The notes under the pieces were generated by a model, which searched no databases, had not been told where the DNA came from, and saw only the letters and a list, made by a program, of their open reading frames with translations. From Modestobacter sp. VKM Ac-2977 (GTDB lineage: Bacteria > Actinomycetota > Actinomycetes > Mycobacteriales > Geodermatophilaceae), in the NCBI RefSeq assembly GCF_026968045.1, contig NZ_JAPVBQ010000001.1, positions 1,005,238-1,069,237 on the forward strand: DNA of 64,000 nucleotides, read 5' to 3'. Of this stretch, positions 13,991 to 38,814 are shown one piece after another. The position numbers and the translations under genes are program-made. Each line of letters starts with the position of its first letter. Position 1 is the first letter of the stretch.

Positions 13991-14998
13991 TCAGCGGACG
14001 ACGACGGCGAACTCCTGCTGCGCCACGAACTCACCGATCACCGGGGCGCCGGGCACCTCGCCGCCGAGCAGCAGCCCGCCGGAGGTCTGTGCGTCGGCCA
14101 GCAGCAGCGCCTCCTCCTCGCTGACCGCCGACAGGTCGGCGTGCGGGCGCACCCAGTCCAGGTTCCGCCGGGTGCCGCCGGAGACCCAGCCGTCGGCCAG
14201 CGCCTGCCGGGCCCCGGCCAGGTAGGGGACGGCGGCGGCGTCGACCACCGCGGTCACCCCGCTGGCGCGGGCCATCTTGTACAGGTGGCCGAGCAGGCCG
14301 AAGCCGGTGACGTCGGTTCCCGCCCGGATGCCCGCGGCGACGGCGGCCACCGACGCCTCGGCGTTGAGCGCGGTCATCGAGGCCACTGCCTCGGCCGACA
14401 CCTCGCCGGTGTTCTTGTGCCGGCTGTTCAGCACGCCCACGCCCAGCGGCTTGGTCAGCGACAGCGCCGTCCCCGCGACGGCGGCGTCGTTGCGGATCAG
14501 CCGGTCCAGGTCGACCAGGCCGGTGACCGCCATGCCGTACTTCGGCTCGGGGTCGTCGATGGAGTGGCCGCCGCCGACGTGGCAGCCCGCCGCGTGCGCG
14601 ACCTCCAGCCCGCCGCGCAGCACCTCCGCGGCCAGCTCGGCCGGCAGCACGTCCCGCGGCCAGCCGAGCAGGTTCACCGCCATGACCGGGGTGCCGCCCA
14701 TCGCGTAGACGTCGGAGAGCGCGTTGGCCGCGGCGATCCGGCCGAAGGTGTACGCGTCGTCGACGACCGGGGTGAAGAAGTCGGTGGTGAGCACCAGCCC
14801 CTGGCCGCCGGCGATCCGCACCACGGCGGCGTCGTCCCCGTCGTCCAGGCCGACGACCAGTTCGGCCGCAGGGTGGTCCGGGCCGGTGGCGGTGAGGCCG
14901 GCGACGACCGCCTCGAGCTCGCCGGGCGGGATCTTGCAGGCGCAGCCGCCACCGTGCGCGTACTGGGTCAGCCGGACGGGCGGTGCAGTGGCGGTCAC
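13991..14998 (-). CDS. selD: selenide, water dikinase
   Basis: Makes selenophosphate from selenide and ATP, the selenium donor for Sec-tRNA synthesis. The 335-residue protein begins RLTQYAHGGGCACK; Cys19 and Lys22 match the essential Cys and Lys of the E. coli enzyme, so this SelD is a cysteine form, not a selenoprotein. LTTDFFTPVVDD and ANALSDVYAMGG follow, as does the C-terminal GxGLLGH segment (FGLLGHLYKMA). A leaderless -10 box (TACATT) precedes the GTG start. It is divergent from the LacI gene and lies 8 kb from selC-selA-selB, with an arabinoside operon in between. Confidence 0.96.
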   Translation of the reverse strand: MTATAPPVRLTQYAHGGGCACKIPPGELEAVVAGLTATGPDHPAAELVVGLDDGDDAAVVRIAGGQGLVLTTDFFTPVVDDAYTFGRIAAANALSDVYAMGGTPVMAVNLLGWPRDVLPAELAAEVLRGGLEVAHAAGCHVGGGHSIDDPEPKYGMAVTGLVDLDRLIRNDAAVAGTALSLTKPLGVGVLNSRHKNTGEVSAEAVASMTALNAEASVAAVAAGIRAGTDVTGFGLLGHLYKMARASGVTAVVDAAAVPYLAGARQALADGWVSGGTRRNLDWVRPHADLSAVSEEEALLLADAQTSGGLLLGGEVPGAPVIGEFVAQQEFAVVVR

Positions 14999-16306: not shown

Positions 16307-16335
16307 TTGACAGCTGTCGTGGGATGGGCCACATT
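16307..16335 (+). promoter_or_regulatory. promoter of the arabinoside transport/hydrolysis operon
   Basis: A perfect TTGACA -35 box (16307-16312) is followed 17 bases later by CACATT (16330-16335) as a weak -10. The first transporter gene starts at 16567, so the leader would be about 220 bases, unusually long for this window, where many genes look leaderless. I see no known riboswitch in that leader. Confidence 0.6.
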
Positions 16336-16342
16336 GCTCTTC

Positions 16343-16352
16343 ACAACGTTGT
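16343..16352 (+). promoter_or_regulatory. LacI-family operator
   Basis: ACAACGTTGT is a perfect palindrome with the central CG typical of LacI/GalR operators. It lies 7 bases after the -10 box, over the likely transcription start, where bound repressor would block initiation. Confidence 0.65.
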
Positions 16353-16566
16353 AGAACGTGCTCCAGGGCACAGTCGACGACGTGTGCGGCGCTCCGGCGC
16401 CTGCCCCCGGTCACCACCCCGCGACCGGGTGCACCTGCGCGCGGCGCTGGGCGACATCCTCGCCCACTGCAGCTCGTCGCACCTCGCTCCACCGGGAGTC
16501 GAACGTGCAGCCGGCTCCAGCCACCGACGACGGCGTCCGTGGCCGTCACTCCGAGAGGGACCTCCC

Positions 16567-17919
16567 GTGAACAAGAAGCTCATGACCGCACTGTTCGGTG
16601 CGGGAACCGTCATGACCAGCGTCACCGCCTGTGGCGGAGGTGGGGACGGCGAGGCCGCCGCCAGCGGCGGCGGGTCCTGCAGCGTGCCGATCGTCAACGA
16701 GGAGGCGCCGGTCGTCTCCGTGTGGGCGTGGTACCCGAACATGAAGACGGTGGTGGAGAACTTCAACGACACCCACACCGACGTGCAGGTCTGCCTCACC
16801 AACGCCGGCCAGGGGGCCGACGAGTACGCCAAGTTCCAGACCGCCGTCTCGGCCGGCCGCGGCGCCCCGGACGTGATCATGCTCGAGACCGACACCGTCC
16901 CGGTCTTCGCCCTGCAGGAGGCCCTGCTCGACCTCAGCGAGTACGGCGCCAGCGAGGTCGAGGGCAACTTCGGCGAGGGTGCCTGGCGCGACGTCTCCAG
17001 CGGCGACGCGGTGTACGGCATCCCGATCGACGGTGGCCCGATGGCGATGATGTACCGCCAGGACATCTTCGACCAGTACGGCATCACCCCGCCCACCACC
17101 TGGGACGAGTACCGGGCCGCGGCGGAGAAGCTGAAGGCCGCCGGTGGGCCGCTGATGGGCGACCTCCCGGCGAACGTCCCGGCCCCCACCGTGGCCCTGA
17201 TGCAGCAGAACGGCGCGGAGCCGTGGACCTACGACTCGGCGAACCCGACCGAGCTGGAGATCGACCTCAACAGCCCGGAGAGCAAGGAGGTGCTGGACTA
17301 CTGGGCCGGCCTGGTCGAGGACGGGCTCATCGGCACCCAGGACCAGTTCACCACCGAGTACATCTCCGGTGCGATCAACGGCGACTACGCCACCTACATC
17401 TCCGCCGCCTGGGCGCCCGGCTACCTGACCGGCGCCGGCGCGGGTGAGGGCGCGGACGCGGGCACCTGGCGCGTCGCCCCGTTGCCGCAGTGGGACCCGG
17501 CCAACCCCGTCTCGGTCAACTGGGGTGGTTCGGTCCTCGCGGTGACCAGCCAGGCGGAGGACCCGGAGCTGGCCGCGCAGGTGGCGATGGAGCTGTACGC
17601 CGACGAGCCGTCGCTGACGGACGGGTGGACGTCGCAGACGATCTTCCCGCTGAACCAGTCGGTGCTGAACTCGCAGGAGTTCATCGACCACGAGTCGGAG
17701 TTCTTCGACGGCCAGACCGCCAACAAGGACGTCTACATCCCGGCGGCCAACGCCTACGAGGGGTCGACCTACAGCCCCTTCGGCACCACGTTCTACGCCC
17801 AGTTCACCGAGGAGATCGCCGCGATCAACGCCGGTGAGAAGACCGGCTCGGAGGCGCTGGACGACCTGCAGGCGGAGATGGAGGCCTACGCCGAGCAGCA
17901 GGGCTTCACGCTCAACTGA
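16567..17919 (+). CDS. ABC transporter sugar-binding lipoprotein
   Basis: A 450-residue extracellular solute-binding protein of family 1 (CUT1 sugar importers). It has a lipoprotein signal: MNKKLMTALFGAG, then SVTAC, with the lipidated cysteine near residue 20, followed by a glycine-rich linker. The mature protein shows VSVWAWYPNMKTVVENF, APDVIMLETD and GIPIDGGPMAMMYRQDIF, typical of maltose/arabino-oligosaccharide binders. GTG 16567 is chosen over the longer frame because it begins the signal peptide and follows GAGAGGGA. It is the first gene of the operon and delivers sugar to the two permeases downstream. The substrate is inferred as arabinose-containing oligosaccharide from the neighbouring GH51 enzyme. 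Confidence 0.92.
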   Translation: MNKKLMTALFGAGTVMTSVTACGGGGDGEAAASGGGSCSVPIVNEEAPVVSVWAWYPNMKTVVENFNDTHTDVQVCLTNAGQGADEYAKFQTAVSAGRGAPDVIMLETDTVPVFALQEALLDLSEYGASEVEGNFGEGAWRDVSSGDAVYGIPIDGGPMAMMYRQDIFDQYGITPPTTWDEYRAAAEKLKAAGGPLMGDLPANVPAPTVALMQQNGAEPWTYDSANPTELEIDLNSPESKEVLDYWAGLVEDGLIGTQDQFTTEYISGAINGDYATYISAAWAPGYLTGAGAGEGADAGTWRVAPLPQWDPANPVSVNWGGSVLAVTSQAEDPELAAQVAMELYADEPSLTDGWTSQTIFPLNQSVLNSQEFIDHESEFFDGQTANKDVYIPAANAYEGSTYSPFGTTFYAQFTEEIAAINAGEKTGSEALDDLQAEMEAYAEQQGFTLN

Positions 17920-17955
17920 GCCGGCCGGCCCAGCCGGACGACTCGGTCCGGCCGC

Positions 17956-17981
17956 GGGGGGGGGGCCCCCCCCCCCCCCCC
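17956..17981. repeat. G10-C16 homopolymer hairpin
   Basis: Ten G followed by sixteen C, between the binding-protein gene and the first permease gene. It can fold as a G-C hairpin and lies just after a second inverted repeat (CCGGAC 17934-17939 / GTCCGG 17946-17951). It may lower expression of the permeases relative to the binding protein. Its exact length should be treated as uncertain because such runs are error-prone in sequencing. Confidence 0.75.
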
Positions 17982-18025
17982 GCGACCGGACACCCCAACC
18001 TCCCCAGAACGAGAGCGAGACGGTG

Positions 18026-18982
18026 ATGGCAACGCTGGACACGGCACCGCGGCCGGTGTCCCCCGCGGCAGGGGCCACGTCGGCCACCGGACGGCGGGGC
18101 ACCCGCCGACGCAAGCGGCGCGGCAACGGGCTGGTCGGCTGGCTGTTCCTGGCCCCGTTCGCGGTGGTCTTCCTGCTGTTCCTGGTGGGCCCGCTGCTGT
18201 ACGCCTTCTACCTCAGCCTCTTCACCAACGGGCTGGCCACGGGCGAGGAGTTCGCCGGACTGGCCAACTACAGCCGGGCCTTCACCGACCCGGCGTTCCT
18301 GTCCGGTGTCTGGTTCGTCGTGCGCTTCGCCGTCGTGGTCATCCCGGCCCAGATGCTGGTCGCCCTGATCGCTGCGCTGGTGCTCGACTCGTTGACCAGC
18401 CGCTTCGCCAAGTTCTCCCGGCTCATGATCTTCGTCCCCTACGCGATCCCCGCCGTCATCGGTGCGGTGCTGTGGGGCTTCCTGTACAGCCCGAACTTCG
18501 GGCCGCTGGAGCAGCTGTTCGGGGAGAGCGCACCGTTCCTGCTGAGCCCGGACAACCTGTTCTACGGGCTGACGAACGTGGTGACCTGGCAGTGGGCCGG
18601 CTACTACATGATCATCATCTACGCGGCGCTGCAGGGGATCGACCCGGCCATCTACGAGGCGGCCCGGATGGACGGCGCGAAGGCCTGGCAGATCGCCACC
18701 CGGATCAAGATCCCGATGATCAGCTCGGCGCTGGTGCTCATCCTGGTCTTCGCCGTCATCGGCACCCTGCAGTTCTTCACCGAGCCCCAGGTGCTGCTGC
18801 CGATCTCCAACGGGTCGATCACCACCGACATCACCCCGAACGTCTACGCCTTCAACCTGGCGTTCCGGTTCGCCCAGTTCAACTACGCCTCGGCCATCTC
18901 CTTCGCCCTGGGCATCGTGGTGTTCATCGGCGTCTACCTCTTCCTCTTCCTGACCCGCAAGCGTGGGGGGTTCCTCAAGTGA
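18026..18982 (+). CDS. ABC sugar permease, MalF-type
   Basis: A 318-residue inner-membrane permease with six predicted helices after a basic N-terminal tail (residues 1-35). The first helix is GWLFLAPFAVVFLLFLVGPLLY, here noted only by its ends GWLFL and GPLLY. The EAA loop that contacts the ATPase is EAARMDGAKAWQ near residue 210. ATG 18026 is taken as the start; an adjacent in-frame GTG is at 18023. It overlaps the next permease by GTGA. It pairs with the MalG-type subunit to form the channel for the sugar importer. Confidence 0.93.
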   Translation: MATLDTAPRPVSPAAGATSATGRRGTRRRKRRGNGLVGWLFLAPFAVVFLLFLVGPLLYAFYLSLFTNGLATGEEFAGLANYSRAFTDPAFLSGVWFVVRFAVVVIPAQMLVALIAALVLDSLTSRFAKFSRLMIFVPYAIPAVIGAVLWGFLYSPNFGPLEQLFGESAPFLLSPDNLFYGLTNVVTWQWAGYYMIIIYAALQGIDPAIYEAARMDGAKAWQIATRIKIPMISSALVLILVFAVIGTLQFFTEPQVLLPISNGSITTDITPNVYAFNLAFRFAQFNYASAISFALGIVVFIGVYLFLFLTRKRGGFLK

Positions 18983-19905
18983 GCGTCCTGTCCAGCCCCG
19001 TCCGCGCCGACGATGCGGTCCACGGCCTCCGGGAGGGCCGCCGTGCCCGACGCCCGCGTCGGCGTCGTACCGGCTCGCACCTGTTCCTCGCCTTCCTCGT
19101 CCTCTACTTCGTGCTGCCGCTGTGGTTCCTCGTCGTGGCCAGCACCAAGAGCCCCGGCGGGCTGTTCAACTCGCCGAACGGCGCCCTGTGGTTCGGGGAG
19201 GAGTTCGCCCTCTTCGACAACCTCTCGACGCTGTTCACCTACAACGACGGCATCTACCTCAGGTGGCTCGGCAACTCGCTGCTCTACGCCTTCGGTGGCG
19301 GCATCGGGGCCACCGTCCTGGCCGTGCTCGCCGGGTACGCGTTCGCCAAGTTCGACTTCCCGGGCCGCCGGATCTCCTTCGCGCTGCTGCTCGGCGCGGT
19401 CATGGTCCCGATGACCGCCCTGGTCATCCCCACCTTCGTGATGCTGTCGGAGGTCGAGCTCACCAACACCGCGTGGGCGGTGATCCTGCCGTCGATGCTC
19501 AGCCCGTTCGGCGTGTACCTGATGCGGGTCTACACCGCCGACGGCGTGCCCGACGAGCTGCTGGACGCGGCCCGGATGGACGGCGCGGGGGAGTTCCGCA
19601 CCTTCTTCCAGGTCGCGCTGCCCCTGATGCGCCCGGCGATCGTCACGGTGCTGCTGCTGTCGGTCGTGGGCACCTGGAACAACTACTTCCTGCCCCTCGC
19701 CGTCCTGTCGGACTCCGAGCTCTTCCCGATCACCGTGGGGATCAACCTCTGGCAGGGACTCGCCGGCGCCAACAACGGCGGCGGCGTCTCCCTCTACACG
19801 CTGATCGTCGTCGGTTCGCTGGTGTCGATCATCCCGCTGATCGCCGCCTTCCTCGGCCTCCAGCGGTACTGGCAGGGCGGCCTGTCCATCGGCAGCCTCA
19901 AGTAG
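18979..19905 (+). CDS. ABC sugar permease, MalG-type
   Basis: The second channel subunit, 308 residues with six helices after an arginine-rich N-terminus. The EAA-type loop DAARMDGAGEFRTFFQVALP is near residue 200 and the C-terminus QRYWQGGLSIGSLK is typical of MalG relatives. The start overlaps the upstream stop (GTGA). It ends with TAG at 19903, one of only three TAG stops in the window. The family's usual C-terminus is reached exactly there, so UAG acts as a real stop here even though the genome encodes a CUA tRNASec. Confidence 0.93.
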   Translation: MSVLSSPVRADDAVHGLREGRRARRPRRRRTGSHLFLAFLVLYFVLPLWFLVVASTKSPGGLFNSPNGALWFGEEFALFDNLSTLFTYNDGIYLRWLGNSLLYAFGGGIGATVLAVLAGYAFAKFDFPGRRISFALLLGAVMVPMTALVIPTFVMLSEVELTNTAWAVILPSMLSPFGVYLMRVYTADGVPDELLDAARMDGAGEFRTFFQVALPLMRPAIVTVLLLSVVGTWNNYFLPLAVLSDSELFPITVGINLWQGLAGANNGGGVSLYTLIVVGSLVSIIPLIAAFLGLQRYWQGGLSIGSLK

Positions 19906-20047
19906 TCCCCCCGGTGGCCCGCCACCGGCGTCGGGTCACGGCCGGCGCGGCACGCCCTCGTGCCGTGCGCCCCGTCCCTCCGGCGAGCCTGCTCCAGGCC
20001 CGTCACCCCATCGCGCGGCCCGGCCGCCCCCACGTCGAGGAACCCTC

Positions 20048-21559
20048 ATGCCCACTGCACAGCTGACGCTCGACCCCCGCTTCACCATCGGCGCCGTCCA
20101 CCGGCGGGTCTTCGGCTCCTTCGTCGAGCACCTGGGCCGCTGCGTCTACGACGGCCTCTACGAGCCCGGTCACCCGACGGCCGACGAGGAGGGCTTCCGG
20201 ACCGACGTGCTGGAGCTGGTCCGCGAGCTCGGGGTCTCGACCATCCGCTACCCCGGCGGCAACTTCGTCTCCGGCTACCGGTGGGAGGACGGCGTCGGGC
20301 CACGGGAGTCCCGGCCCAAGCGCCTGGACCTGGCGTGGCACTCGCTGGAGACCAACCAGGTCGGCCTGCACGAGTTCGCCCGCTGGAACGACAAGGCGGG
20401 CAGCGAGCTGATGCTGGCCGTCAACCTGGGCACCCGCGGTGTGCTGGAGGCCCTCGACCTCCTCGAGTACAGCAACGTCCGGTCCGGGTCGGCGCTGTCG
20501 GACCAGCGGATCGCCGACGGCACCACGGAGCCCTTCGGCGTGAAGATGTGGTGCCTGGGCAACGAGATGGACGGCCCGTGGCAGCTGGGGCACCGCAGCG
20601 CGGAGGACTACGGGAAGATCGCCGCCCAGGCCGCCAAGGCCATGCGCCAGCTGGACCCGTCCGTCGAGCTCGTGGTCTGCGGCAGCTCCAACTCCGCCAT
20701 GCCGACGTTCGGGGCGTGGGAGCGCACCGTGCTGGAGCACACCTACGAGGACGTCGACTTCATCTCCTGCCACGCCTACTACGCCGAGCGCAACGGCGAC
20801 CTGGCCGGCTTCCTCGCCTCGGCCGTCGACATGGACCACTTCATCGAGTCCGTCGTCGCCACCGCCGACCACGTCAAGGCGGAGCTGCGCAGCGCCAAGA
20901 CGATCAACATCGCCTTCGACGAGTGGAACGTCTGGTACCAGGAGCGCTTCCACGCCGAGGACCAGATCACCGACATCGAGAAGTGGCCCTACGCACCCCG
21001 GCTGCTCGAGGACGCCTACCACGTCGCCGACGCCGTCGTCGTCGGCAGCCTGCTGATCTCGCTGCTCAAGCACGCCGACCGGGTCACCTCCGCCAGCCTG
21101 GCGCAGCTGGTGAACGTCATCGCGCCGATCATGACCGAGCCCGGTGGCCCGGCCTGGCGGCAGACGACGTTCTTCCCCTTCGCGCTGACCTCCCGCCTGG
21201 CCCGGGGGAGCGCGCTGCGCGTCGAGCTGTCGAGCGAGACGTACCGCACGACCGAGCACGGCGACGTCCCCCTGGTCGACGCGGTCGCCACCCACGACCC
21301 GGAGACCGGCGCCACGGCGGTCTTCCTGGTCAACCGGGCGATCGAGGGGCCGACGACGGTGACCATCGACGCCCGCAGCCTCGGCGACGTGCGCGTCCTG
21401 GAGACGCACACCCTGAACGACGACGACCCGTATGCGGTCAACACCCTGGCCGAGCCGACCCGGGTCACCCCGGTGGCGAACAAGAGCGCCCACCTGCAGG
21501 ACGGCGTCCTCACCATCGAGCTGCCCCCGGTGTCCTGGACGGCGGTCTCCCTTGGCTGA
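20048..21559 (+). CDS. abfA: alpha-N-arabinofuranosidase, GH51
   Basis: A 503-residue intracellular retaining glycosidase that removes terminal arabinofuranose from arabino-oligosaccharides. The (beta/alpha)8 barrel carries the acid/base Glu173 in CLGNEMDGPWQ and the nucleophile Glu292 in FDEWNVWY; the N-terminal FGSFVEHLGRCVY and IRYPGGNFVSGY are hallmark GH51 segments. A beta-sandwich follows (about 390-503). There is no signal peptide, so it acts on imported sugar, which fits its place after the permeases. Ribosome binding is by GAGGAA just before ATG 20048. Confidence 0.95.
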   Translation: MPTAQLTLDPRFTIGAVHRRVFGSFVEHLGRCVYDGLYEPGHPTADEEGFRTDVLELVRELGVSTIRYPGGNFVSGYRWEDGVGPRESRPKRLDLAWHSLETNQVGLHEFARWNDKAGSELMLAVNLGTRGVLEALDLLEYSNVRSGSALSDQRIADGTTEPFGVKMWCLGNEMDGPWQLGHRSAEDYGKIAAQAAKAMRQLDPSVELVVCGSSNSAMPTFGAWERTVLEHTYEDVDFISCHAYYAERNGDLAGFLASAVDMDHFIESVVATADHVKAELRSAKTINIAFDEWNVWYQERFHAEDQITDIEKWPYAPRLLEDAYHVADAVVVGSLLISLLKHADRVTSASLAQLVNVIAPIMTEPGGPAWRQTTFFPFALTSRLARGSALRVELSSETYRTTEHGDVPLVDAVATHDPETGATAVFLVNRAIEGPTTVTIDARSLGDVRVLETHTLNDDDPYAVNTLAEPTRVTPVANKSAHLQDGVLTIELPPVSWTAVSLG

Positions 21560-21666
21560 CCCCCGGCCCGCCTGCTCAGCGGCCCCGCCCGCCGAGCACC
21601 CGATCACCTCTCCCTCGTCCGCCCTGCCCGGATCCCCGGCATCCCCGACCACCAGGAGTGCGCCCG

Positions 21667-22740
21667 ATGGCGACCGTCACCTATGAGCGAGCGACCTGTG
21701 CCTACGCCGGCTCCGATCGGCTGGCGGTCGACTCGCTCGACCTGACCGTGGCCGACGGGGAGTTCTTGATCCTGGTCGGGCCCTCCGGCTGCGGGAAGTC
21801 CACGTCCCTGCGGATGCTGGCCGGCCTGGAGCAGGTCGACGAGGGGCGCATCCTCATCGACGGCAAGGACGTCACCGACGTCGAGCCGAAGGACCGGGAC
21901 ATCGCGATGGTGTTCCAGAACTACGCGCTCTACCCGCACATGACCGTCGCCGAGAACATGGGCTTCGCGCTGAAGATCGCCGGGATGGACAAGGGGGAAC
22001 GCCGCGCCCGGGTCGAGGAGGCGGCCAGGCTGCTGGACCTGGAGCCCTACCTGGACCGCAAGCCCAAGGCGCTCTCCGGCGGGCAGCGGCAGCGGGTCGC
22101 CATGGGGCGGGCCATCGTCCGCAAGCCCAAGGTCTTCCTGATGGACGAGCCGCTGTCCAACCTCGACGCCAAGCTCCGCGTGCAGACCCGCACCCAGATC
22201 GCCTCGCTGCAGCGCCGGCTGGGCATCACCACCGTCTACGTCACCCACGACCAGGTCGAGGCGATGACCATGGGCGACCGGGTCGCGGTGCTCAAGGACG
22301 GCGAGCTCATGCAGGTCGGTGCTCCCCGCGAGCTCTACGACCGCCCGGCCAACGTCTTCGTCGCCGGCTTCATCGGCTCCCCGGCGATGAACCTCTTCGA
22401 GGTGCCGGTGACCGACGGGGGCGTCCGCTTCGGCGACCGGGTCCACCCGGTGGCGCGGGAGGTCCTGGCCGCCAACGCCGGCGACACGATGACCCTGGGT
22501 GTCCGCCCGGAGGACTTCGACATCTCCGACTCGGGGGCCGCGGTCGAGGTCGACGTCGTCGAGGAACTGGGCGCCGACGCCTACGTCTACGGCCGGCTCA
22601 CCCAGGGGGGCACCGAGTCCCTGGTCACCGTCCGGGTCGACGGCCGGCAGCCACCCCGCCGGGGGGAGCGGGTCCACGTCGTGCCGCGGGCCGACCACGT
22701 CCACCTCTTCGGCAGCGACGGGGTCCGGCTGGCGGACTGA
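21667..22740 (+). CDS. ugpC: ABC transporter ATPase, UgpC/MsmK/MalK type
   Basis: A 357-residue ATPase that energises CUT1 sugar importers. Walker A is GPSGCGKST near residue 38, the signature is LSGGQRQRVAMGRA near 138, Walker B is VFLMDEPLSNLDA, and the switch histidine is in VTHDQVEAMT. A C-terminal OB-type regulatory domain (about 240-357) carries GVRPEDFDI. Many actinobacteria share one such ATPase between several sugar transporters; here it closes the operon and probably serves these permeases first. ATG 21667 is chosen over the long upstream frame because it precedes the conserved N-terminal strand. Confidence 0.94.
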   Translation: MATVTYERATCAYAGSDRLAVDSLDLTVADGEFLILVGPSGCGKSTSLRMLAGLEQVDEGRILIDGKDVTDVEPKDRDIAMVFQNYALYPHMTVAENMGFALKIAGMDKGERRARVEEAARLLDLEPYLDRKPKALSGGQRQRVAMGRAIVRKPKVFLMDEPLSNLDAKLRVQTRTQIASLQRRLGITTVYVTHDQVEAMTMGDRVAVLKDGELMQVGAPRELYDRPANVFVAGFIGSPAMNLFEVPVTDGGVRFGDRVHPVAREVLAANAGDTMTLGVRPEDFDISDSGAAVEVDVVEELGADAYVYGRLTQGGTESLVTVRVDGRQPPRRGERVHVVPRADHVHLFGSDGVRLAD

Positions 22741-22804: not shown

Positions 22805-22900
22805 GGAGACGTCAGGGTGTCTGGTGGCCCCCGCGGCCTCTAAAGCCGACGTGGCCGAGCAACTCGGTCAGGCGGGTTCGATTCCCGTCCGTCTCCGCCA
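22805..22900 (+). tRNA. selC: tRNA-Sec with CUA anticodon
   Basis: A 96-base selenocysteine tRNA with the 3' CCA encoded. The acceptor stem has 7 good pairs (22805-22811 with 22890-22896) and an eighth T-C position; the discriminator is G. The T arm is 5 bp around TTCGATT (22877-22883). The variable arm is long, CCGAG/CTCGG (22855-22859 with 22863-22867), extended by two further pairs. The anticodon stem CGGC/GCCG encloses the loop C-T-C-T-A-A-A (22838-22844), so bases 34-36 (22840-22842) are CTA. Ordinary tRNASec has TCA. The D arm is short, with 4 clear pairs. The selA gene follows 60 bases downstream, which confirms its identity. It should decode UAG. Confidence 0.93.
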
Positions 22901-22960: not shown

Positions 22961-24298
22961 ATGACCACGGACGCCACGACCGCCGCCGCGACCACCGACC
23001 CGCGCCGGCGGGTGCCCCGGACCGACACGGTGCTCGCCGACCCCGCCGTCGCCGCTGCGGTGCAGCGACTGGGCCGGGAACTGGTGAAGCGCGCCGTCCA
23101 GGTCGCGCAACAGCGTGTCCGGGAGGGCGACCTGCCGTCGGAGGACGTCGTCGCCGCCGTGCTGGCCGGGCTGCCCGGCACCGCCAGCAGCCTCTCGCCG
23201 GTGCTCAACGCCACCGGCGTGCTCGTGCACACCAACCTGGGCCGGGCACCGCTGTCGAGCGCGGCCGTGGCCGCGGTGGTGGCGGCCAGCGGCACCACCG
23301 ACGTCGAGCTCGACCTCGGCACCGGCCGCCGCGGCCCGCGGGGAGAGGGAGCGCTGTCGGCGCTGCTGGCCGCCGTGCCCGCCGCCGAGGCCGCGCTGGT
23401 GGTGAACAACTGCGCCGCCGCGCTGGCGCTGGTGGCCACCGCGTTCGGCGGGGAGCTGGTCATCGCGCGTGGGGAGCTGGTCGAGATCGGCGACGGCTTC
23501 CGCATCCCCGACCTGCTGGTCAGCACCGGTGCGCGGCTGCGCGAGGTCGGGACGACGAACCGGGTCTCGCTCACCGACTACACCGACGCCCTCGGCCCGG
23601 ACACCGGCGCGGTGCTCAAGGTGCACCCCTCGAACTTCGTCGTCCGCGGGTTCACCCGGTCCGCCGACGTCGCGGAGCTGGCTCCCGCGCTGGCCGGCAC
23701 CGGGGTGCCGCTGGTCGTCGACGTGGGCAGCGGGCTGCTCCGCCCGCATCCGCTGCTGCCCGACGAGCCGGACCTGGAGACCACGCTGGCCGCCGGCGCG
23801 GACCTGGTGCTGTGCAGCGGCGACAAGCTGCTCGGCGGCCCGCAGGCCGGCATCGTGCTCGGCTCCGCAGCGCTGGTCCAGCGGCTGCGGCGGCACCCGC
23901 TCTACCGGGCGCTGCGGGTGGACAAGACGACCCTGGCAGCCCTGGAGGCGACGGTGCGCGGCCCGGTGCCGCCGGTCCAGCAGATGCTGGACGCCGACCC
24001 GGCCCGGCTGCAGGCCCGGGCCACCGCGGTGGCCGCCGCCCTGCAGGCCCGCGGGATCGAGGCGGTCGCCGTCGCGTCGACCGCGCGGGTCGGCGGTGGG
24101 GGAGCCCCGGAGTTCGAGCTGCCCAGCGCCGCCGTCGCGCTCGACCCGCGGTTCGCCGAAGCGCTGCGACACGGTGACCCGCCGGTGGTCGGCCACCTGG
24201 ACGGCGACCGCACGCTGCTCGACGTGCGCAGCCTGCTCCCCACCGACGACGAGCGGCTCATCACCGCCGTGACGGAGGTGGCCCGCCGGTGGAGCTGA
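22961..24298 (+). CDS. selA: L-seryl-tRNA(Sec) selenium transferase
   Basis: A PLP enzyme that converts seryl-tRNASec to selenocysteinyl-tRNASec using selenophosphate. The 445-residue protein has the SelA N-terminal helical domain for tRNASec binding, the LNATGVLVHTNLGRAPLS segment near residue 85, and the PLP lysine Lys289 in CSGDKLLGGPQAG. Length and motifs match active bacterial SelA. ATG 22961 follows a -10 box directly. It overlaps selB by 10 bases, so both are co-translated. Because SelA reads the body of tRNASec and not its anticodon, it should work on the CUA form without change. Confidence 0.97.
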   Translation: MTTDATTAAATTDPRRRVPRTDTVLADPAVAAAVQRLGRELVKRAVQVAQQRVREGDLPSEDVVAAVLAGLPGTASSLSPVLNATGVLVHTNLGRAPLSSAAVAAVVAASGTTDVELDLGTGRRGPRGEGALSALLAAVPAAEAALVVNNCAAALALVATAFGGELVIARGELVEIGDGFRIPDLLVSTGARLREVGTTNRVSLTDYTDALGPDTGAVLKVHPSNFVVRGFTRSADVAELAPALAGTGVPLVVDVGSGLLRPHPLLPDEPDLETTLAAGADLVLCSGDKLLGGPQAGIVLGSAALVQRLRRHPLYRALRVDKTTLAALEATVRGPVPPVQQMLDADPARLQARATAVAAALQARGIEAVAVASTARVGGGGAPEFELPSAAVALDPRFAEALRHGDPPVVGHLDGDRTLLDVRSLLPTDDERLITAVTEVARRWS

Positions 24299-26058
24299 CC
24301 GCTGCCGCCCGGATGGACGTCCTGGCGACCGCCGGCCACGTCGACCACGGCAAGTCGACGCTGGTGACGGCCCTGACCGGGATGGAGCCGGACCGCTGGG
24401 AGGAGGAGCGCCGGCGCGGGCTCACCATCGATCTGGGGTTCGCCTGGACGACGCTGCCCTCCGGTCGCCGGCTGGCGATCGTCGACGTGCCCGGGCACGA
24501 GCGGTTCGTGGGCAACATGCTCGCCGGGGTCGGTTCGGTGCCCGCCGCGCTGGTCGTGGTCGCCGCGGACGACGGGTGGTCGGCGCAGACCGCCGAGCAC
24601 GTCGCCGTCCTCGATGCCCTCGGGGTGCGGCACGGGCTGCTCGCCGTCACCAAGTCCGACCTCGCCGACCCCGCGCCGGTGCTCGCCGACGCCGCCGAGC
24701 GGCTGGCCGGGACGTCGCTGGGCCGGGTGCCGGCCGTGGCGGTCAGCGCGCGGTCCGGTACCGGGCTGCCGGAGCTGGCCGCTGCGCTGGAGCAGGTGCT
24801 GGCGGGTCTGCCCGCCCCCGAGGCGGTCGCGCCGGTGCGGCTGTGGATCGACCGGGCGTTCACCATCCGGGGCGCCGGGACCGTCGTGACCGGCACCCTG
24901 GCCGCCGGCACGATCACCACCGGCGACCGGCTGGACCTGGGCGGGCGACCGGTGACCGTGCGTGGGCTGCAGTCGCTCGGGGCGCCGGTCGAGGCGGCCT
25001 CGGCCACCGCCCGGGTGGCGCTCAACCTGCGCGGGGTGGCGGTCGAGGAGCTCTCCCGCGGCGACGCGCTGCTCACCCCCGACGCGTTCCGGCGCACCGC
25101 GGACCTCGACGTGACGCTGGTGCGACCGGTCGAGGAGAAGCTGCCCGCGGAGCTGGTCGTGCACATCGGGTCGGCGACGGTCGCGGCGCGCGTACGTCCG
25201 CTGGACGGGTCGGCCCTGCGCCTGCGACTGGCCACCGAGCTGCCGCTGCGGGTGGGGGACCGGCTGCTGCTGCGCGACCCCGGCGCCCGACGGGTGCACG
25301 GTGCCGACGTGCGCGACGTGGACCCACCGGAGCTGCGCCGCCGCGGGGCTGCCCGGACCCGCGCGGCCGAGCTCGCCGAGCAGCCGATGGGTGAGGCCGG
25401 GGCGCGGGCGGACCTGGTGCGGCGGCGGTTCGTGCGCCGGGCGGACTTCGTGGCGATGGGCTGGCCGGTGCCCGCGGACGCCACGGCCGTCGGCCCCTGG
25501 CTCCTCGCTCCGGGGCTGGCCGACGAGCTGGCCGCCCGGGTGCCGCAGGTGGTGGCCCGCTATCGGCAGCTGCGCCCGCTGGAGCCCGGCCCGCCGACCG
25601 CGGTGCTGCGGTCGGCGCTGGAGCTGCCCGATGTCGAGCTGGTGCCTTCGCTGGTGCGGGAGCCCCTGGCGCTGCGGGACGGCCGGGTCGTCTCCGGTGC
25701 CGCGGCGCTGCCGCCGGCGGTGCAACAGGCGGTGGACGGCATCCGCGCCCGCCTGGTGCAGGAGCCGTTCGCCGCCCCGGAGGCCGGTGACCTGGTGGCC
25801 GCCGGACTGGGGCCGCGCGAGCTGGCCGCAGCGGTGCGGGACGAGCAGCTGGTGCGGATCACCGAGGGCATCTACCTGGCACCGGGGGTCGCCGAGCAGG
25901 CCCGGGTCAGGCTCGCGGCGCTGCCGCAGCCGTTCACGCTCAGCGAGGCGCGCAAGGCGTGGGGGACGACCCGCCGGGTCGCCGTCCCACTGGCCGAGTG
26001 GCTCGACGCCCGCGGGGTCACCGTCCGCCAGCCGGACAACACCCGCCGGCTGCGCTGA
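24289..26058 (+). CDS. selB: selenocysteine-specific elongation factor
   Basis: A 589-residue GTPase that carries Sec-tRNASec to the ribosome and binds the SECIS hairpin in the mRNA. The G1 motif is AGHVDHGKST (near residue 20), G3 DVPGHERF, G4 TKSD; EF-Tu-like domains II and III follow, then C-terminal winged-helix domains (about 380-589) for SECIS binding, ending FTLSEARKAWGTTRRVAVPLAEWLDARGV (noted here by FTLSEARKAW). The start is GTG 24289 or ATG 24313; the first is used because it overlaps selA in the usual coupled way. In this organism it should deliver Sec at UAG codons followed by a SECIS. Confidence 0.96.
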   Translation: MELTAAARMDVLATAGHVDHGKSTLVTALTGMEPDRWEEERRRGLTIDLGFAWTTLPSGRRLAIVDVPGHERFVGNMLAGVGSVPAALVVVAADDGWSAQTAEHVAVLDALGVRHGLLAVTKSDLADPAPVLADAAERLAGTSLGRVPAVAVSARSGTGLPELAAALEQVLAGLPAPEAVAPVRLWIDRAFTIRGAGTVVTGTLAAGTITTGDRLDLGGRPVTVRGLQSLGAPVEAASATARVALNLRGVAVEELSRGDALLTPDAFRRTADLDVTLVRPVEEKLPAELVVHIGSATVAARVRPLDGSALRLRLATELPLRVGDRLLLRDPGARRVHGADVRDVDPPELRRRGAARTRAAELAEQPMGEAGARADLVRRRFVRRADFVAMGWPVPADATAVGPWLLAPGLADELAARVPQVVARYRQLRPLEPGPPTAVLRSALELPDVELVPSLVREPLALRDGRVVSGAAALPPAVQQAVDGIRARLVQEPFAAPEAGDLVAAGLGPRELAAAVRDEQLVRITEGIYLAPGVAEQARVRLAALPQPFTLSEARKAWGTTRRVAVPLAEWLDARGVTVRQPDNTRRLR

Positions 26059-26150
26059 CCCGCCGTCTCACCCGACGGGCGCCGCCGGCTCCGTCAGCCG
26101 GACCGCGTGCGTGTGGGACCACCCGGTGGCCGGCGCCAGCCGCGGCAGGG

Positions 26151-26936
26151 TCAGTCGCCGGCCGGGACCCAGCGGGCGGGGCGCTTCTCCCGGAAGGCGG
26201 CGATGCCCTCCTGGCCCTCCTCGCCGGCGAAGAACCGCGCCGACAGCTCCAGCAGCGCCGGGATCTGCCCGGCCAGGTCGGTGCCCGACCGCAGCAGCCG
26301 CTTCGTCTCGGCCAGCGCGGTCGGCGCCCCGGCGGCCAGCGCGGTGACCTGCGCAGCGACGGTGGCGTCGACCTCGTCGTCCGGCACGGCCAGGTCGACC
26401 AGCCCGCCGGCGGCGGCCGTCGCGGCGTCGAAGACCTCGCCGGTGAGCATCAGCCGGTGGACGACGTTCGGCAGCATCCGCGGCCGGCACACCGCGGAGA
26501 TCACCGCCGGGACGACGCCGATCCGCACCTCGGTGAACGCGAAGGTGGCAGCAGCGCCGGCCACCACGACGTCGCAGGCCGCGGCCAGTCCCACCCCACC
26601 CGCGCGAGCCGGGCCGCGGACGGCGGCGAGCACCGGCTTCGGCGCGTTCCAGATCAGCTCCAGCAGCTCGGGGAACTCGTTGACGCCCTGGTCGGCGGCG
26701 GCGCCTCCGGTGGCCTCGGCGAGGTCCATGCCGGAGCAGAACACCCGGCCGGTGTGGTCGAGCACCACCACCCGTACGGCGTCGTCGGCGAAGGCCTCGG
26801 TGAGGGCGGTGCGGAGCTGGGCGCGCATGGCGCGGGAGAGGGCGTTCCGGTTGGCGGGGGAGTCGAGGGTCAGCCGGGCCACGCCGGCGGACACGTCGAC
26901 GGAGAGCACGCGGTCGTCATTGGTCGCGGAGGTCAC
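26151..26936 (-). CDS. enoyl-CoA hydratase/isomerase family protein
   Basis: A 261-residue crotonase-fold protein. The oxyanion-hole segments are VFCSGMDLAEA near residue 67 and GPARAGGVGLAAACDVV near 108, and the acid residue position is in FTEVRIGVVPAVIS. The open frame extends far upstream, antisense to hemW, but GTG 26936 gives the normal family length. It probably acts on a CoA thioester in fatty-acid or amino-acid breakdown; the substrate cannot be read from the sequence. It is divergent from hemW with 39 bases between start codons, so the two share a promoter region. Confidence 0.88.
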   Translation of the reverse strand: MTSATNDDRVLSVDVSAGVARLTLDSPANRNALSRAMRAQLRTALTEAFADDAVRVVVLDHTGRVFCSGMDLAEATGGAAADQGVNEFPELLELIWNAPKPVLAAVRGPARAGGVGLAAACDVVVAGAAATFAFTEVRIGVVPAVISAVCRPRMLPNVVHRLMLTGEVFDAATAAAGGLVDLAVPDDEVDATVAAQVTALAAGAPTALAETKRLLRSGTDLAGQIPALLELSARFFAGEEGQEGIAAFREKRPARWVPAGD

Positions 26937-26975
26937 GCCGCCATCTTGCCGGGGGCGGTCACACTGGGAGCAGCG

Positions 26976-28208
26976 ATGACCACGACCCTCCCTCTCCTCG
27001 GCCAGACCCCGGCGCTGCCCGCGGACCCCTCGATGCTCCCGGCGTCGGCCCGGGACGGCCTGCCGACGACGCCGTTCGGCCTCTACGTGCACGTGCCGTT
27101 CTGCGCCACGCGCTGCGGCTACTGCGACTTCAACACCTACACCTCCGACGAGCTGGGCCCGGGCGCCAACCGCAGCGAGTACGCCGGCACCGCCATCGCC
27201 GAGCTGCGGTTCGCCGCCGAGGTGCTGGGGCCCGACCGCCCGCCGGTGCAGACGGTCTTCGTCGGTGGCGGCACCCCGACGCTGCTGCCGGCGCAGGACC
27301 TGGTGGCCGTCATGGACGCCGTCCGTGAGCTCTTCCCGGTGGCCTCCGACGTGGAGGTGACCACCGAGGCCAACCCCGAGTCGGTGACGCCGGAGTCGCT
27401 GGCCACCCTGCGGGCCGGTGGCTTCACCCGGATCAGCCTGGGCATGCAGTCCGCCGCCGAGCACGTGCTCGCCGTGCTGGACCGCCGGCACACCCCCGGC
27501 CGGGCGGTGCAGGCCGCGCACGAGGCCCGGGCCGCCGGCTTCGAGCACGTGAACCTGGACCTGATCTACGGCGCACCGGGGGAGACCGACGCCGACTGGC
27601 AGGCCTCGCTCGACGCCGTCCTGGCCGCGCCGGTCGACCACGTCAGCGCCTATGCGCTGATCGTCGAGCAGGGCACCCGGCTGGCCCGGCGGGTGGCCCG
27701 GGGCGAGCTGCCGATGCCGGACGACGACGTGCTGGCCGACCGCTACGAGATGGCCGACCGCACGTTCGGAACGGCCGGGCTGGGCTGGTACGAGGTGTCG
27801 AACTGGGCCCGCGACCGGGCGGCCCGCTGCCGGCACAACGAGCTGTACTGGGCCAACGCGAACTGGTGGGGGATCGGGCCCGGCGCGCACTCGCACGTCG
27901 GCGGGCTGCGCTGGTGGAACGTCAAGCACCCGGCCGCCTACGCCGACCGGCTGGCCGCCGGTCTGCACCCGGCCGCCGACAGCGAGCTGCTGACGCCTGC
28001 GGACCAGGCGCTGGAGACGGTGATGCTCGGGCTCCGGCTGCGTGACGGGCTGCCGCTGACCGCACTGAGCGCGGCGGGGCGGGCGCGGGCCGCGGACTCC
28101 GTCGCCCGGGGGCTGCTGGCAGCCGCGCCGCACGAGGCAGGGCTCGCCGTCCTCACCGACCGCGGCAGGCTGCTCGCCGACGCCGTCGTCCGCGACCTCA
28201 CCGACTAG
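26976..28208 (+). CDS. hemW: radical SAM heme chaperone HemW
   Basis: A 410-residue radical SAM protein related to coproporphyrinogen dehydrogenase. The iron-sulfur motif CATRCGYCDF (CxxxCxxC) is near residue 48, followed by FVGGGTPTLLP and TTEANPESV. HemW-type proteins bind heme and lack the extra residues of true HemN, so heme delivery is the likelier role. ATG 26976 is chosen because it precedes the conserved FGLYVHVPFC segment. It ends with TAG at 28206. Its position beside recQ is not the usual one beside hrcA in other actinobacteria. Confidence 0.92.
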   Translation: MTTTLPLLGQTPALPADPSMLPASARDGLPTTPFGLYVHVPFCATRCGYCDFNTYTSDELGPGANRSEYAGTAIAELRFAAEVLGPDRPPVQTVFVGGGTPTLLPAQDLVAVMDAVRELFPVASDVEVTTEANPESVTPESLATLRAGGFTRISLGMQSAAEHVLAVLDRRHTPGRAVQAAHEARAAGFEHVNLDLIYGAPGETDADWQASLDAVLAAPVDHVSAYALIVEQGTRLARRVARGELPMPDDDVLADRYEMADRTFGTAGLGWYEVSNWARDRAARCRHNELYWANANWWGIGPGAHSHVGGLRWWNVKHPAAYADRLAAGLHPAADSELLTPADQALETVMLGLRLRDGLPLTALSAAGRARAADSVARGLLAAAPHEAGLAVLTDRGRLLADAVVRDLTD

Positions 28209-35228: not shown

Positions 35229-36365
35229 ATGGCAACCGACTACTACGGCGTGCTGGGCCTTGCCCAGGGAGCCAGCGACACCGAGATCAAGCGCGCCTAC
35301 CGCAAGATGGCCCGCGACCTGCACCCCGACGTGAACCCGGACCCGGGTGCGAAGGAGAAGTTCGGGGAGGTCAGCCGGGCCTACGAGGCGCTGACCGACC
35401 CGGAGAAGCGGCGGATCATCGACCTGGGTGGTGACCCCTACGACACCAACGGCGGCCGGGGCGGCAGCCCGTTCGGCAACGCCGCCGGCTTCGGCGGGCT
35501 CGGCGACATCATGGACGCCTTCTTCGGCGGGGGCGCCGGCCGCGGGCCGCGCGGCCGCACCCGCGAGGGCGAGGACGCGCTGATCCGGGTCGACCTGGAC
35601 CTCGACGAGACCGTCTTCGGCACGACGACGGAGGTCACCGTCGACACCGCCGTGCTCTGCGACGCCTGCACCGGTGCCGGCACCGCCCCCGGCACCCACC
35701 CGGAGACCTGCTCCACCTGCAACGGCCGCGGCGAGGTGCAGAGCGTGCAGCGCTCCTTCCTGGGTCAGGTCATCGCCAGCCGCCCGTGCCCCACCTGCCA
35801 GGCCACCGGCCAGGTCATCCCCAACCCGTGCCCCAAGTGCGCCGGTGACGGGCGGGTGCGCTCCCGCCGCACCATCCCGGTCAAGGTCCCGGCCGGCGTC
35901 GAGGACGGCATGCGCATCCGGCTGGCCGGCTACGGCGAGGTCGGCCCCGGCGGCGGCCCGGCCGGCGACCTGTACGTCGAGGTGCGTGAGCGCCCGCACG
36001 ACGTGTTCACCCGCGACGGCGAGGACCTGCACTGCCGGGTCACCCTGCCGATGACCGCGGCGGCGCTGGGCACCACGCTCAAGCTCGAGACCCTCGACGG
36101 CAACGAGGACCTCACCATCAAGGCCGGCACCCAGTCCGGCACCGTGCTCACCCTGCGGGCGCACGGCGCCCCGCGGCTGCGCGGCACCGGCCGGGGGAAC
36201 CTGCTCGTGCACCTCGACGTGCAGACGCCCACCCGGATCGACGGCCGTCAGCAGGAGCTGCTGCGCGAGCTCGCCGGGCTGCGCGGTGAGGACCTCACCG
36301 ACGGCAACAGCGCGAACCACGGTGGTCTGTTCACCCGGGTGCGCGACGCCTTCAACGGCCGATGA
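35229..36365 (+). CDS. dnaJ: chaperone protein DnaJ
   Basis: A 378-residue Hsp40 co-chaperone of DnaK. The J domain (1-65) has the HPD motif in [10 protein letters not shown]; a glycine-rich region follows; the zinc domain has four repeats ([32 protein letters not shown]); the C-terminal substrate domains complete a type I DnaJ. It is the second DnaJ usual in actinobacteria, linked to hrcA and under CIRCE control. It overlaps rsmE by ATGA. Confidence 0.97.
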
Positions 36366-37120
36366 GTCAGGCCCCGGACGCACTCGCGGCCGACGGCGCC
36401 CCGCTCTTCCTGCTCGACGAGGTGCCGGACGGCGACGTCCTCACCGTGGACGGCGCCGAGGGCCGGCACGCCGTCGACGTGCTGCGGCTCGGTCCCGGTG
36501 AGCGGGTGCGGGTGAGCGACGGGCAGGGGCTGCTGGTCGAGGGCTCCGTGCTCGCGGCCGCGGGGTCGGCGCTGCAGGTCCAGGTGCTCGCCCGGCACGA
36601 CGTCCCCGCGCCGCAGCCGGAGTTCGTGCTCGTGCAGGCGCTGCCCAAGGGCGACCGGGGCCCGCTCGCCGTCGACCTGGCCACCGAGCTGGGCGTCGAT
36701 CGGATCGTCCCGTGGACCGCGGCCCGCTGCGTCACCCGGTGGCGGGAGGACCGGGTCGACAAGGGCCTGGCCAAGTGGCGCTCGGCCGCTCGGGCCGCCA
36801 CCAAGCAGGCCCGCCGGCCGCGGGTGCCCGAGGTGACCGAGCCGATGAGCACCCGCCAGGTCTGCGGCATGCTCGCCGACGCCGACCTGGCCCTGGTGCT
36901 GCACGAGCAGGCCCGCCAGCCGTTCGCCCAGCTCGAGGTGCCGGCGACCGGGTCGATCGCGGTCATCGTCGGGCCCGAGGGCGGGCTGACCGACGGCGAG
37001 GTGGTCGCCTTCCGGGCGGCCGGCGCGCAGTCGGTGCGCCTGGGTGCGGAGGTGCTGCGGACGTCGACCGCCGGCGCCGCCGTGCTCGCCGCACTGTCCG
37101 CCCGCACCCGCTGGCGGTAG
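36362..37120 (+). CDS. rsmE: 16S rRNA (uracil-1498-N3)-methyltransferase
   Basis: A 252-residue SPOUT-class methyltransferase that modifies U1498 in the decoding region. An N-terminal PUA-like domain ([16 protein letters not shown]) is followed by the knotted domain with [14 protein letters not shown] and [19 protein letters not shown], which binds S-adenosylmethionine. Length and ends match the family. It stops with TAG (37118-37120), 1 base before a long hairpin. ATGA overlap with dnaJ shows co-translation. Confidence 0.96.
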
Positions 37121-37121
37121 C

Positions 37122-37195
37122 CGTCGAGTGAGCAGTCGTGGTCGCCGACACCGCCGGACACGCCGGGGACGACGACCACGACTGCGCACTCGACG
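37122..37195. terminator. long hairpin between rsmE and the minus-strand transporter
   Basis: Two 23-base arms (37122-37144 and 37173-37195) are complementary at 22 of 23 positions around a 28-base loop. It lies between convergent stops, so it probably ends both transcripts. No T-run follows. Confidence 0.65.
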
Positions 37196-37204
37196 CAGCG
37201 GGCC

Positions 37205-38814
37205 TCAGCGCAGGGCGGAGCGGGCGCGGGCGCTGACCAGGTCGACCGCGGCGGTCAGCAGCACCAGCGCCACCAGCACGGTGGTCACCGCGCCCCAGTC
37301 GAAGGCGGCCACCCGGCTGGCCAGCAGCGCGCCGAGCCCGCCGGCGCCGAGCAGCCCGACCAGCACGGTGTCCCGGATCGCCACCTCCCAGCGGTACAGC
37401 GCGAACGCCAGCACCGGCCCGGTCGCCGCCGGGAGCACCCCGTACAGCCAGCCACCCACCGGCCCGGCGCCCATCGCGGTGAGCGCCGCCCGGGGGCGCG
37501 GGTCCAGCTCCTCGGTCGCCTCCGCGGCCAGCCGCCCCAGCACGCCGAGCGTGTAGACACCGAGCGCGAGCGCCCCGGGGAGGACCCCGGGCAGCAGCAC
37601 GAACAGCAGCACCAGCGCCCACACCGGCGGCGGTACGGCCCGCAGCAGCAGCAGGGCGAGCCGGACGACGGTCCCGGCCAGTCGACGTCCGGCTGACGCC
37701 CGGGCCGGGCGGGCGGCCACCCCGGCCAGCAGCACCGCCCCGACGGTGGCGACGGCGATGGCGATCACCGACATCTGCACCGTGTCGACTGCGGCCGCCG
37801 CGACCGCGGAGAGCAGCGGGCCGTCGACGTCCGGGGGCCAGGCGGCGGCAAGGACGTAGCGCAGCTGCTCGCCGGTGCGGTCGGAGACCAGCGTGGCCGG
37901 CGAGATCGCCAGGTACCACCACGACCAGACGACCCCGGCCAACGAGCCGAGGACCGCCGTGGTGAGCGCGGGGTCCCGGCGCAGCCGGTCCCCGGACGAG
38001 CGGGGTGCGGCCACCCGCCGGCGCACCGCACGGCCGCCGACGTCGGCGAGCAGGCACAGCAGCGCCAGCGCGTAGACGCAGGACCACACCTGCTCCCAGC
38101 GCAGCGAGCTGAACGACAGCAGCAGCTGGTAGCCCAACCCACCGGCGCCGATCAGTCCGAGCACCACGGCCGACCGGACCGCGCACTCCAGCCGGTAGAA
38201 GGAGTACGACAGCAGCCCACCCGACGCCGGGGGCAGCAGCCCGTACAGCGCGGCCGTCGTCCGGCTGGCACCCGCGGCGAGCAGCGCCGAGTACCCGCTG
38301 CGCGGCACCTCGTCGAGCAGGTCGGCGAACACCTTCGCGGTCACCGCCCCGTACGGGACGCCGATCGCCAGCACCCCGACCCACGGGTCCAGCCCCAGCA
38401 GGTTGACCAGCAGCAGCCCCCACACCGCCTCGTGCAGCCCCCGGGGGACGGCGAGCGCCCCGCGGGACAGCGTCCAGCCCAGCCGGCGTCGTCCCCAGGT
38501 GGTGCGGGCGACCGCCACCGCCCCGGCTGCCCCCAGCAGGACCGCCAGCGCCGCCCCGAGCGCGGCGTAGGCGACGGTGACCAGCACCGAGTCGGCGAGC
38601 ACCCGGAGGAACGCGCCGTCCAGGGCGGGGGAGAGGGCGGCGGAGGCGAACCGGCCGAACTGCCCGGTGCCGGCCGGGTTGACCACGTCGCCGGCGAACG
38701 CCCCGGCGCCGGCCAGCGACCAGATCACCACGGCGAGCGCACCGAGTCCCCACGCCCAGCGGGTCCGCGCCCGGTGCAGCCGCGGCACCACCGGCGGCCG
38801 GTCCAGGACGGCGG

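Follow-up and report, generated by a model that had tools for sequence, protein, structure and literature searches.

The selC gene in the window, by which we mean the whole 64,000-nucleotide stretch of Modestobacter DNA analysed here, is almost certainly a true selC gene, predicted from sequence to encode a tRNA that reads UAG as selenocysteine (Sec) through context-dependent recoding of one stop codon, and Modestobacter very probably writes Sec as UAG instead of the usual UGA. The code variant itself is known and rare, is common to most sequenced members of the Geodermatophilaceae and has already been published for this family, and the window presents another carrier of it.

The tRNA-Sec gene and its neighbourhood

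The following features of the window are referred to below.

13991-14998, minus strand: selD, selenophosphate synthetase, 335 amino acids, GTG start (TIGR00476, 387.5 bits)
22805-22900, plus strand: selC, tRNA-Sec with anticodon CUA, loop CTCTAAA and encoded GCCA end (ARAGORN, Rfam)
22961-24298, plus strand: selA, L-seryl-tRNA(Sec) selenium transferase (TIGR00474, 413.5 bits, cut-off 267.9)
24289-26058, plus strand: selB, Sec-specific elongation factor (TIGR00475, 279.3 bits, cut-off 242.25)
25959-28208, plus strand: ORF holding hemW, ends in TAG (TIGR00539, 245.4 bits)
36362-37120: rsmE, ends in TAG (NF008693, 293.7 bits, match almost to the last residue)

The initial annotation had described a gene folding as a tRNA-Sec, with a long variable arm, a GCCA end and the loop C-T-C-T-A-A-A, and hence with the anticodon CUA rather than UCA. 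When the tRNA-Sec covariance model was run over the window, RF01852 matched positions 22805-22896 over its complete length (model positions 1-91) with 64.2 bits (cut-off 47, E 9.4e-11), and ARAGORN placed a tRNA with anticodon CTA at 22805-22900 on the plus strand under the label Pyl, so that both the fold and the anticodon were borne out. Inspection of the sequence and of the covariance-model alignment indicates a long variable arm, a G discriminator and a CCA end, and the eighth acceptor pair is a U.C mismatch, as it is in the aligned UCA relatives. An unconstrained minimum-energy fold of the 96 nt kept the acceptor stem and the long variable arm and lost the anticodon arm, and the cloverleaf therefore rests on the covariance model; none of 200 shuffles folded as well as the gene. 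A search for a second selC, in particular a copy with anticodon UCA that would speak against UAG, yielded five RF01852 matches in the whole genome, namely the window selC and four weaker ones which ARAGORN called three tRNA-Ser and one tRNA-Leu, the best of the four (48.1 bits, just above the cut-off) being a tRNA-Ser. No second tRNA-Sec was thus found in the Modestobacter genome with RF01852 and ARAGORN.

As had been claimed, selC stands next to selA and selB: the profile matches place selA directly after selC, and the start of selB overlaps the end of selA at 24289. The selD gene, at a distance of about 8 kb from selC, encodes GGGCAC near the N-terminus of its product and has no in-frame stop. 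The interval between selD and selC (16324-22740) holds sugar ABC transporter genes and an arabinofuranosidase gene (ArfA, 727.7 bits).

Selenoprotein genes with TAG in the Modestobacter genome

The formate dehydrogenase gene (G000:C12) has a single internal stop, a TAG in NQARI-U-HSATVPGLG (NQARI-U-HSATVPGLGTSFGRGG), at the position where this enzyme family carries Sec. Counted from the first possible start, the frame has 1171 codons with the TAG at codon 245, and the earlier warning that gene finding restricted to UGA cuts selenoproteins at TAG applies here, such annotation leaving truncated selenoproteins in Modestobacter. A potential SECIS element, the 7-bp hairpin GGUCCCC-GGUCU-GGGGACC, starts 11 nt past the TAG and beats shuffled sequences only moderately, 9 of 200 being as good over 45 nt and 6 of 200 over 63 nt. 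The second gene has the following location.

G000:C1:1287140-1287466 (PF00578 match), minus strand: peroxiredoxin-like gene (38.7 bits)

Its TAG lies in RGDW-U-PYC and is followed by a hairpin, and the protein would have 222 residues from the chosen ATG to a TGA terminator, while none of the other five PF00578 matches of the genome contains an internal stop. In both the formate dehydrogenase and the peroxiredoxin-like gene, the Sec site is thus an in-frame TAG followed by a hairpin, and no TGA was found inside the FDH, SelD and AhpC-TSA matches of the genome, the families covered here. The TAGs at the catalytic sites of two predicted selenoprotein genes lend support to the earlier claim that this tRNA-Sec would read UAG. 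A UGSC protein gave no match in the Modestobacter genome.

Anticodons and selenocysteine codons across the Geodermatophilaceae

With RF01852 at E <= 1e-9, tRNA-Sec genes were detected in 108 of 112 family genomes (110 matches), and the anticodons, read in all 110 matches, were CUA in 102 cases and UCA in 8. Counted by genome (n = 108), 101 have CUA and 8 have UCA, the Geodermatophilus genome G059 being included in both numbers, and G037 has two CUA genes. The suggestion that the variant may be shared by the family and not be new agrees with this distribution and with the literature. On contig NZ_JABGCI010000003.1 of Blastococcus endophyticus (L289, L302), two CUA tRNA-Sec genes with slightly different sequences lie about 50-60 kb apart. 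The UCA-only genomes belong to three genera (G067, G069 and G070 to g6, G071 to g7, and G073, G074 and G075 to g8) and are all fragmented, with 190 to 550 contigs. Their UCA tRNAs resemble the CUA ones, from which they differ, besides the anticodon, in the loop-adjacent stem pair (T-A versus C-G).

A SelA tree of 39 rows comprised the window, the Coriobacteriia genome described below, one in three of the other CUA rows and the six UCA rows for which SelA was available; the remaining UCA genomes are missing from it because no SelA turned up on the contigs retrieved. The 32 family CUA rows formed one clade (99/99) beside four family UCA rows (100/99), which come from three genomes, G071 being represented twice. 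Most likely, a change from UCA to CUA took place in the selC gene of an ancestor of a large Geodermatophilaceae clade and has been inherited since.

A UAG-type formate dehydrogenase was found at a threshold of 1e-100 in 100 of the 112 family genomes, the 12 without it being all nine from g6-g8 and three incomplete genomes. The Sec codon is TAG in 30 of 30 family formate dehydrogenase loci, and the 45 nt behind it align without gaps (17 distinct rows). The 7-bp stem gives 119 pair cells in these rows, every one a standard pair; both bases of one pair are exchanged in 7 rows, a second pair varies on one side, and five of the seven are invariant. None of 500 shuffles reached the standard-pair count and the 7-row change on both sides, and two of the five pair measures were matched by most shuffles (494 of 500 for the number of pairs altered on both sides, 415 of 500 for additional pair types). 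Extra TGA or TAG codons in seven of the formate dehydrogenase rows, considered as internal stops, were dismissed, since each precedes VKTWLDAW, the likely start. Another ten formate dehydrogenase loci, taken from genomes other than those of g6-g8, had TAG at the Sec codon in 9 cases, and in the tenth, the G080 copy (L403, G080:C4), the stretch with the Sec codon is deleted and the frame changed.

In the genus g8, the Sec codon of formate dehydrogenase is TGA in 4 of 4 genomes (G072-G075). Behind this TGA the loop letters GGTCT can also be recognized by eye, and RNAfold gave a stem enclosing them in 1 of 4 loci. For the formate dehydrogenases of g6 and g7, no stop was seen inside the gene among the matches listed. 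The g8 enzyme did not match the UAG-type enzyme at 1e-100 and its Sec site failed to align with the TIGR01591 homologues lacking a stop in CUA genomes, and a single gene in both the UGA and the UAG state was thus not seen within the family. A stop-free TIGR01591 match in Modestobacter (C1:1531188) had been considered as the Cys form of the g8 TGA enzyme; as the two did not align at the Sec site, in an alignment where the strand was probably mistaken for 3 of 8 other loci, a Sec-to-Cys replacement was no longer considered.

UGSC proteins were found in 54 of 112 family genomes. Among the matches listed, those with an internal stop all have TAG and none TGA, and the others, including those of the UCA genomes G067 and G073, have no internal stop. 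At 24 UGSC loci examined, the U of UGSC corresponded to TAG in 18 and to TGC in 2, and the motif was not found in 4.

UAG as terminator and as selenocysteine codon

Among the 39 gene-like ORFs of the window, 36 are terminated by TGA and 3 by TAG. The third TAG-ended ORF is an antisense frame over selA/selB, some other ORFs being antisense too, and the remaining two correspond to rsmE and hemW; since these ordinary genes end in TAG, UAG would be recoded by context and not reassigned. The rarity of TAG as a terminator, with one of its three ORFs antisense, might suggest that UAG means Sec genome-wide and that termination at UAG is gone, but with rsmE (293.7 bits) and hemW (245.4 bits) ending in TAG this is very improbable. 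When the window was scanned for TAG read-through, the sole candidate, 36362-37696, consisted of rsmE and a trailing frame and was taken as a chance find; the same scan picks up the formate dehydrogenase in L133.

A tRNA with anticodon CUA might also be a tRNA-Pyl, as which ARAGORN labels it and whose anticodon it has, or a plain amber suppressor, so that UAG would be read as pyrrolysine or some other amino acid. This reading is very improbable, as the full-length Rfam tRNA-Sec match comprises the long variable arm, selA and selB adjoin the gene, and TAG sits where the protein families carry Sec or Cys; moreover, ARAGORN labels all eight of the family's UCA tRNAs SeC, and those of g6-g8 closely resemble the CUA tRNAs outside the anticodon arm. 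In a profile scan no pyl genes were found among the nine ORFs of the window between 16324 and 31027. That selC is idle and that the selenoprotein genes acquired their TAGs by plain nonsense mutation has a practically negligible probability in view of the CUA anticodon in 101 of the 108 family genomes having tRNA-Sec, the constant position of TAG in the formate dehydrogenase loci (30 of 30 in one set, 9 of 10 in another), and one compensatory change in the hairpin.

If UAG is read as Sec in its proper context, the established bacterial Sec pathway suggests how this might proceed. SerRS would charge the CUA tRNA-Sec with serine, SelA together with selenophosphate made by SelD would convert the serine to Sec, and SelB would presumably deliver the Sec-tRNA to UAG codons having a bacterial SECIS hairpin directly behind, where Sec would be inserted. 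Elsewhere UAG would remain a terminator, one stop codon thus being recoded in place of another.

A predicted swap to UAG in a Coriobacteriia genome

The pattern used for scanning genome_contigs requires GGTG, YTCTAAA and GGTTCGANTCC, and tRNA-Sec genes of other make-up are therefore missed. In a collection of 84,980 species it retrieved 110 stretches, of which, by our own reading, 89 hold the family tRNA and 21 do not. The 89 include a 4.8-kb contig of a MAG labelled, as given, Jatrophihabitans, and records labelled Bacillus sp. AZ43 and Frankiales, which probably correspond to the family genomes G030 and G061. ARAGORN detected three CTA tRNAs among the 21 non-family stretches, and only the one in L293 resembles tRNA-Sec. 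None of the 31 stretches obtained from viral_contigs resembles tRNA-Sec, and in two of them (L314, L333) ARAGORN found CTA tRNAs. The CTA tRNAs unlike tRNA-Sec, in L269 (an Erysipelotrichaceae MAG), L219 (a Deltaproteobacteria MAG) and the viral contigs L314 and L333, are possible amber suppressor tRNAs.

L293 belongs to the Coriobacteriia MAG contig JAUNNF010000009.1, and the loci concerned are L293:2319-2792, L293 at about 7597-7693, and L381. Its tRNA (64.2 bits to RF01852) is the only match over the cut-off in this MAG; there are 16 weaker matches, and the four of these that were read are other tRNAs. The tRNA is preceded by selA and selB, whose products are 34% and 38% identical to the window proteins over the matched parts, and, further upstream, by a glycine reductase operon. 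The GrdA gene (NF040748, 274.6 bits) has a TAG in ECFV-U-TSAGAMD, and the GrdB gene has one in ILTST-U-GTCTRCG, where 6 of 6 copies from four other genomes of its family have TGA, GrdB being present in 5 of 99 genomes searched. The predicted swap to UAG can thus be followed at a single codon position of one gene, and the tRNA and SelA evidence indicates that it is independent of that in the Geodermatophilaceae. The tRNA fold was equalled by 30 of 200 shuffles, the GrdA hairpin was no better than shuffles (114 of 200 as good), and GrdB has a weaker fold behind its TAG than the relatives have.

A Geodermatophilus genome with two tRNA-Sec genes

The genome G059 is probably that of Geodermatophilus sp. 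LHW52908, its contig C11 corresponding in length to NZ_QVQH01000019.1. On C11 a CUA selC gene adjoins selA and selB, and the formate dehydrogenase and the UGSC protein of this genome have TAG. Contig C17 carries a UCA selC gene (81.8 bits) beside a gene resembling carboxymuconolactone decarboxylase (CMD) with an in-frame TGA (L126:1169-2157, G059:C17). This ORF of 192 codons, about 300 nt from the UCA selC, matches PF02627 with 28.2 bits (cut-off 23) and has its TGA in CFY-U-MESH, at the site of the second CxxC cysteine in CMD/AhpD proteins; the hairpin that follows this TGA does not beat shuffles, 98 of 200 being as good. SelA and SelB gave no match on C17. In windows of 500 bases, the GC content of C17 is 59-63% between 1.0 and 5.5 kb and 68-79% in the flanks, and the rest of the 69-kb contig has about 76%. 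The contig contains no N, and a number of transposase genes lie within its initial 15 kb. The permease gene at 65 kb has counterparts with 78-87% identity in 24 of the 25 other Geodermatophilus genomes, the remaining one having a counterpart with 61%.

Plasmids of two other Actinomycetota, one of them typed as conjugative, carry a UCA tRNA-Sec within selABCD-fdh loci, which makes an import of the UCA selC into G059 plausible. In these plasmids, from Arthrobacter (L368) and Tsukamurella (L369), selA, selB, selC (UCA), selD and formate dehydrogenase lie together; it is the Arthrobacter plasmid that is typed as conjugative, and a Tn3 transposase gene is found beside its sel locus. An argument against import is the position of the island, which adjoins the end of a contig amid insertion sequences, the setting most prone to misassembly. 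The hairpin that fails to beat shuffles also counts against it, as does the outcome of searches of plasmid DNA, plasmid proteins and 394 genomes of the class, in which no donor of the island was found. The DNA search with the island gave five short matches, to the tRNA only; three were opened, two being the annotated selABCD-fdh loci of Arthrobacter and Tsukamurella and the third being unannotated there. The protein search gave 327 records, all below 60% identity, and the CxxU protein was found in three of the 394 class genomes, G059 itself and two with stop-free homologues of 34-37% identity.

Taking these data together with those on the Coriobacteriia, we incline, with little margin, to the view that Sec encoded by UAG arose at least twice in Actinomycetota by a Sec codon swap, once in the Geodermatophilaceae CUA clade and once in the Coriobacteriia species with TAG in GrdA and GrdB, and that G059 now uses two Sec codons. 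One would be the native UAG; the other, UGA, would be read by a UCA tRNA-Sec acquired with a mobile island that also encodes a TGA-containing CxxU CMD-like protein. Both would presumably be served by the SelA and SelB of the host.

Comparison with known systems

In the parts of the published accounts drawn on here, UAG is described as a Sec codon in some bacteria (PMC8124441, PMC10778597), three Geodermatophilaceae genomes are described as having tRNA-Sec with anticodon CUA together with UAG in formate dehydrogenase and in UGSC selenoproteins (Santesmasses 2017, PMC5330540, which cites Mukai 2016), and Blastococcus saxobsidens is listed with a UAG AhpC (PMC5330540). Modestobacter belongs to the same family and shares with these genomes the CUA tRNA-Sec and selenoprotein genes with TAG for Sec; theirs are formate dehydrogenase, UGSC-motif and AhpC genes, and Modestobacter gave no UGSC match. 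Neither Modestobacter nor the family members with UCA, the two-tRNA genome or the Coriobacteriia case is mentioned in the part of PMC5330540 considered. In the literature searched, outside which most subscription journals lie, no report was found on Modestobacter and selenocysteine or on Coriobacteri, selenocysteine and UAG. Mukai et al., in Angew Chem in 2016, reportedly demonstrated UAG-directed Sec in Geodermatophilus and Blastococcus with 75Se labelling or mass spectrometry.

Additional interest comes from a family in which either codon occurs, from an apparent two-tRNA genome and from the Coriobacteriia GrdB with TAG where its relatives have TGA. With the two codons in one family, G059 and the Coriobacteriia swap, a shift of the Sec codon between stops becomes testable by comparison and by the exchange of selC between close relatives. 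Sec insertion at UAG would compete with RF1, and insertion at UGA with RF2.

Compared with the canonical bacterial UGA system (selABCD, bSECIS), the Modestobacter system has SelA, SelB, SelD, the tRNA-Sec body and the hairpin right behind the codon in common and differs in the anticodon CUA and the codon UAG; with the pyrrolysine system it shares the anticodon and the codon but not the tRNA body.
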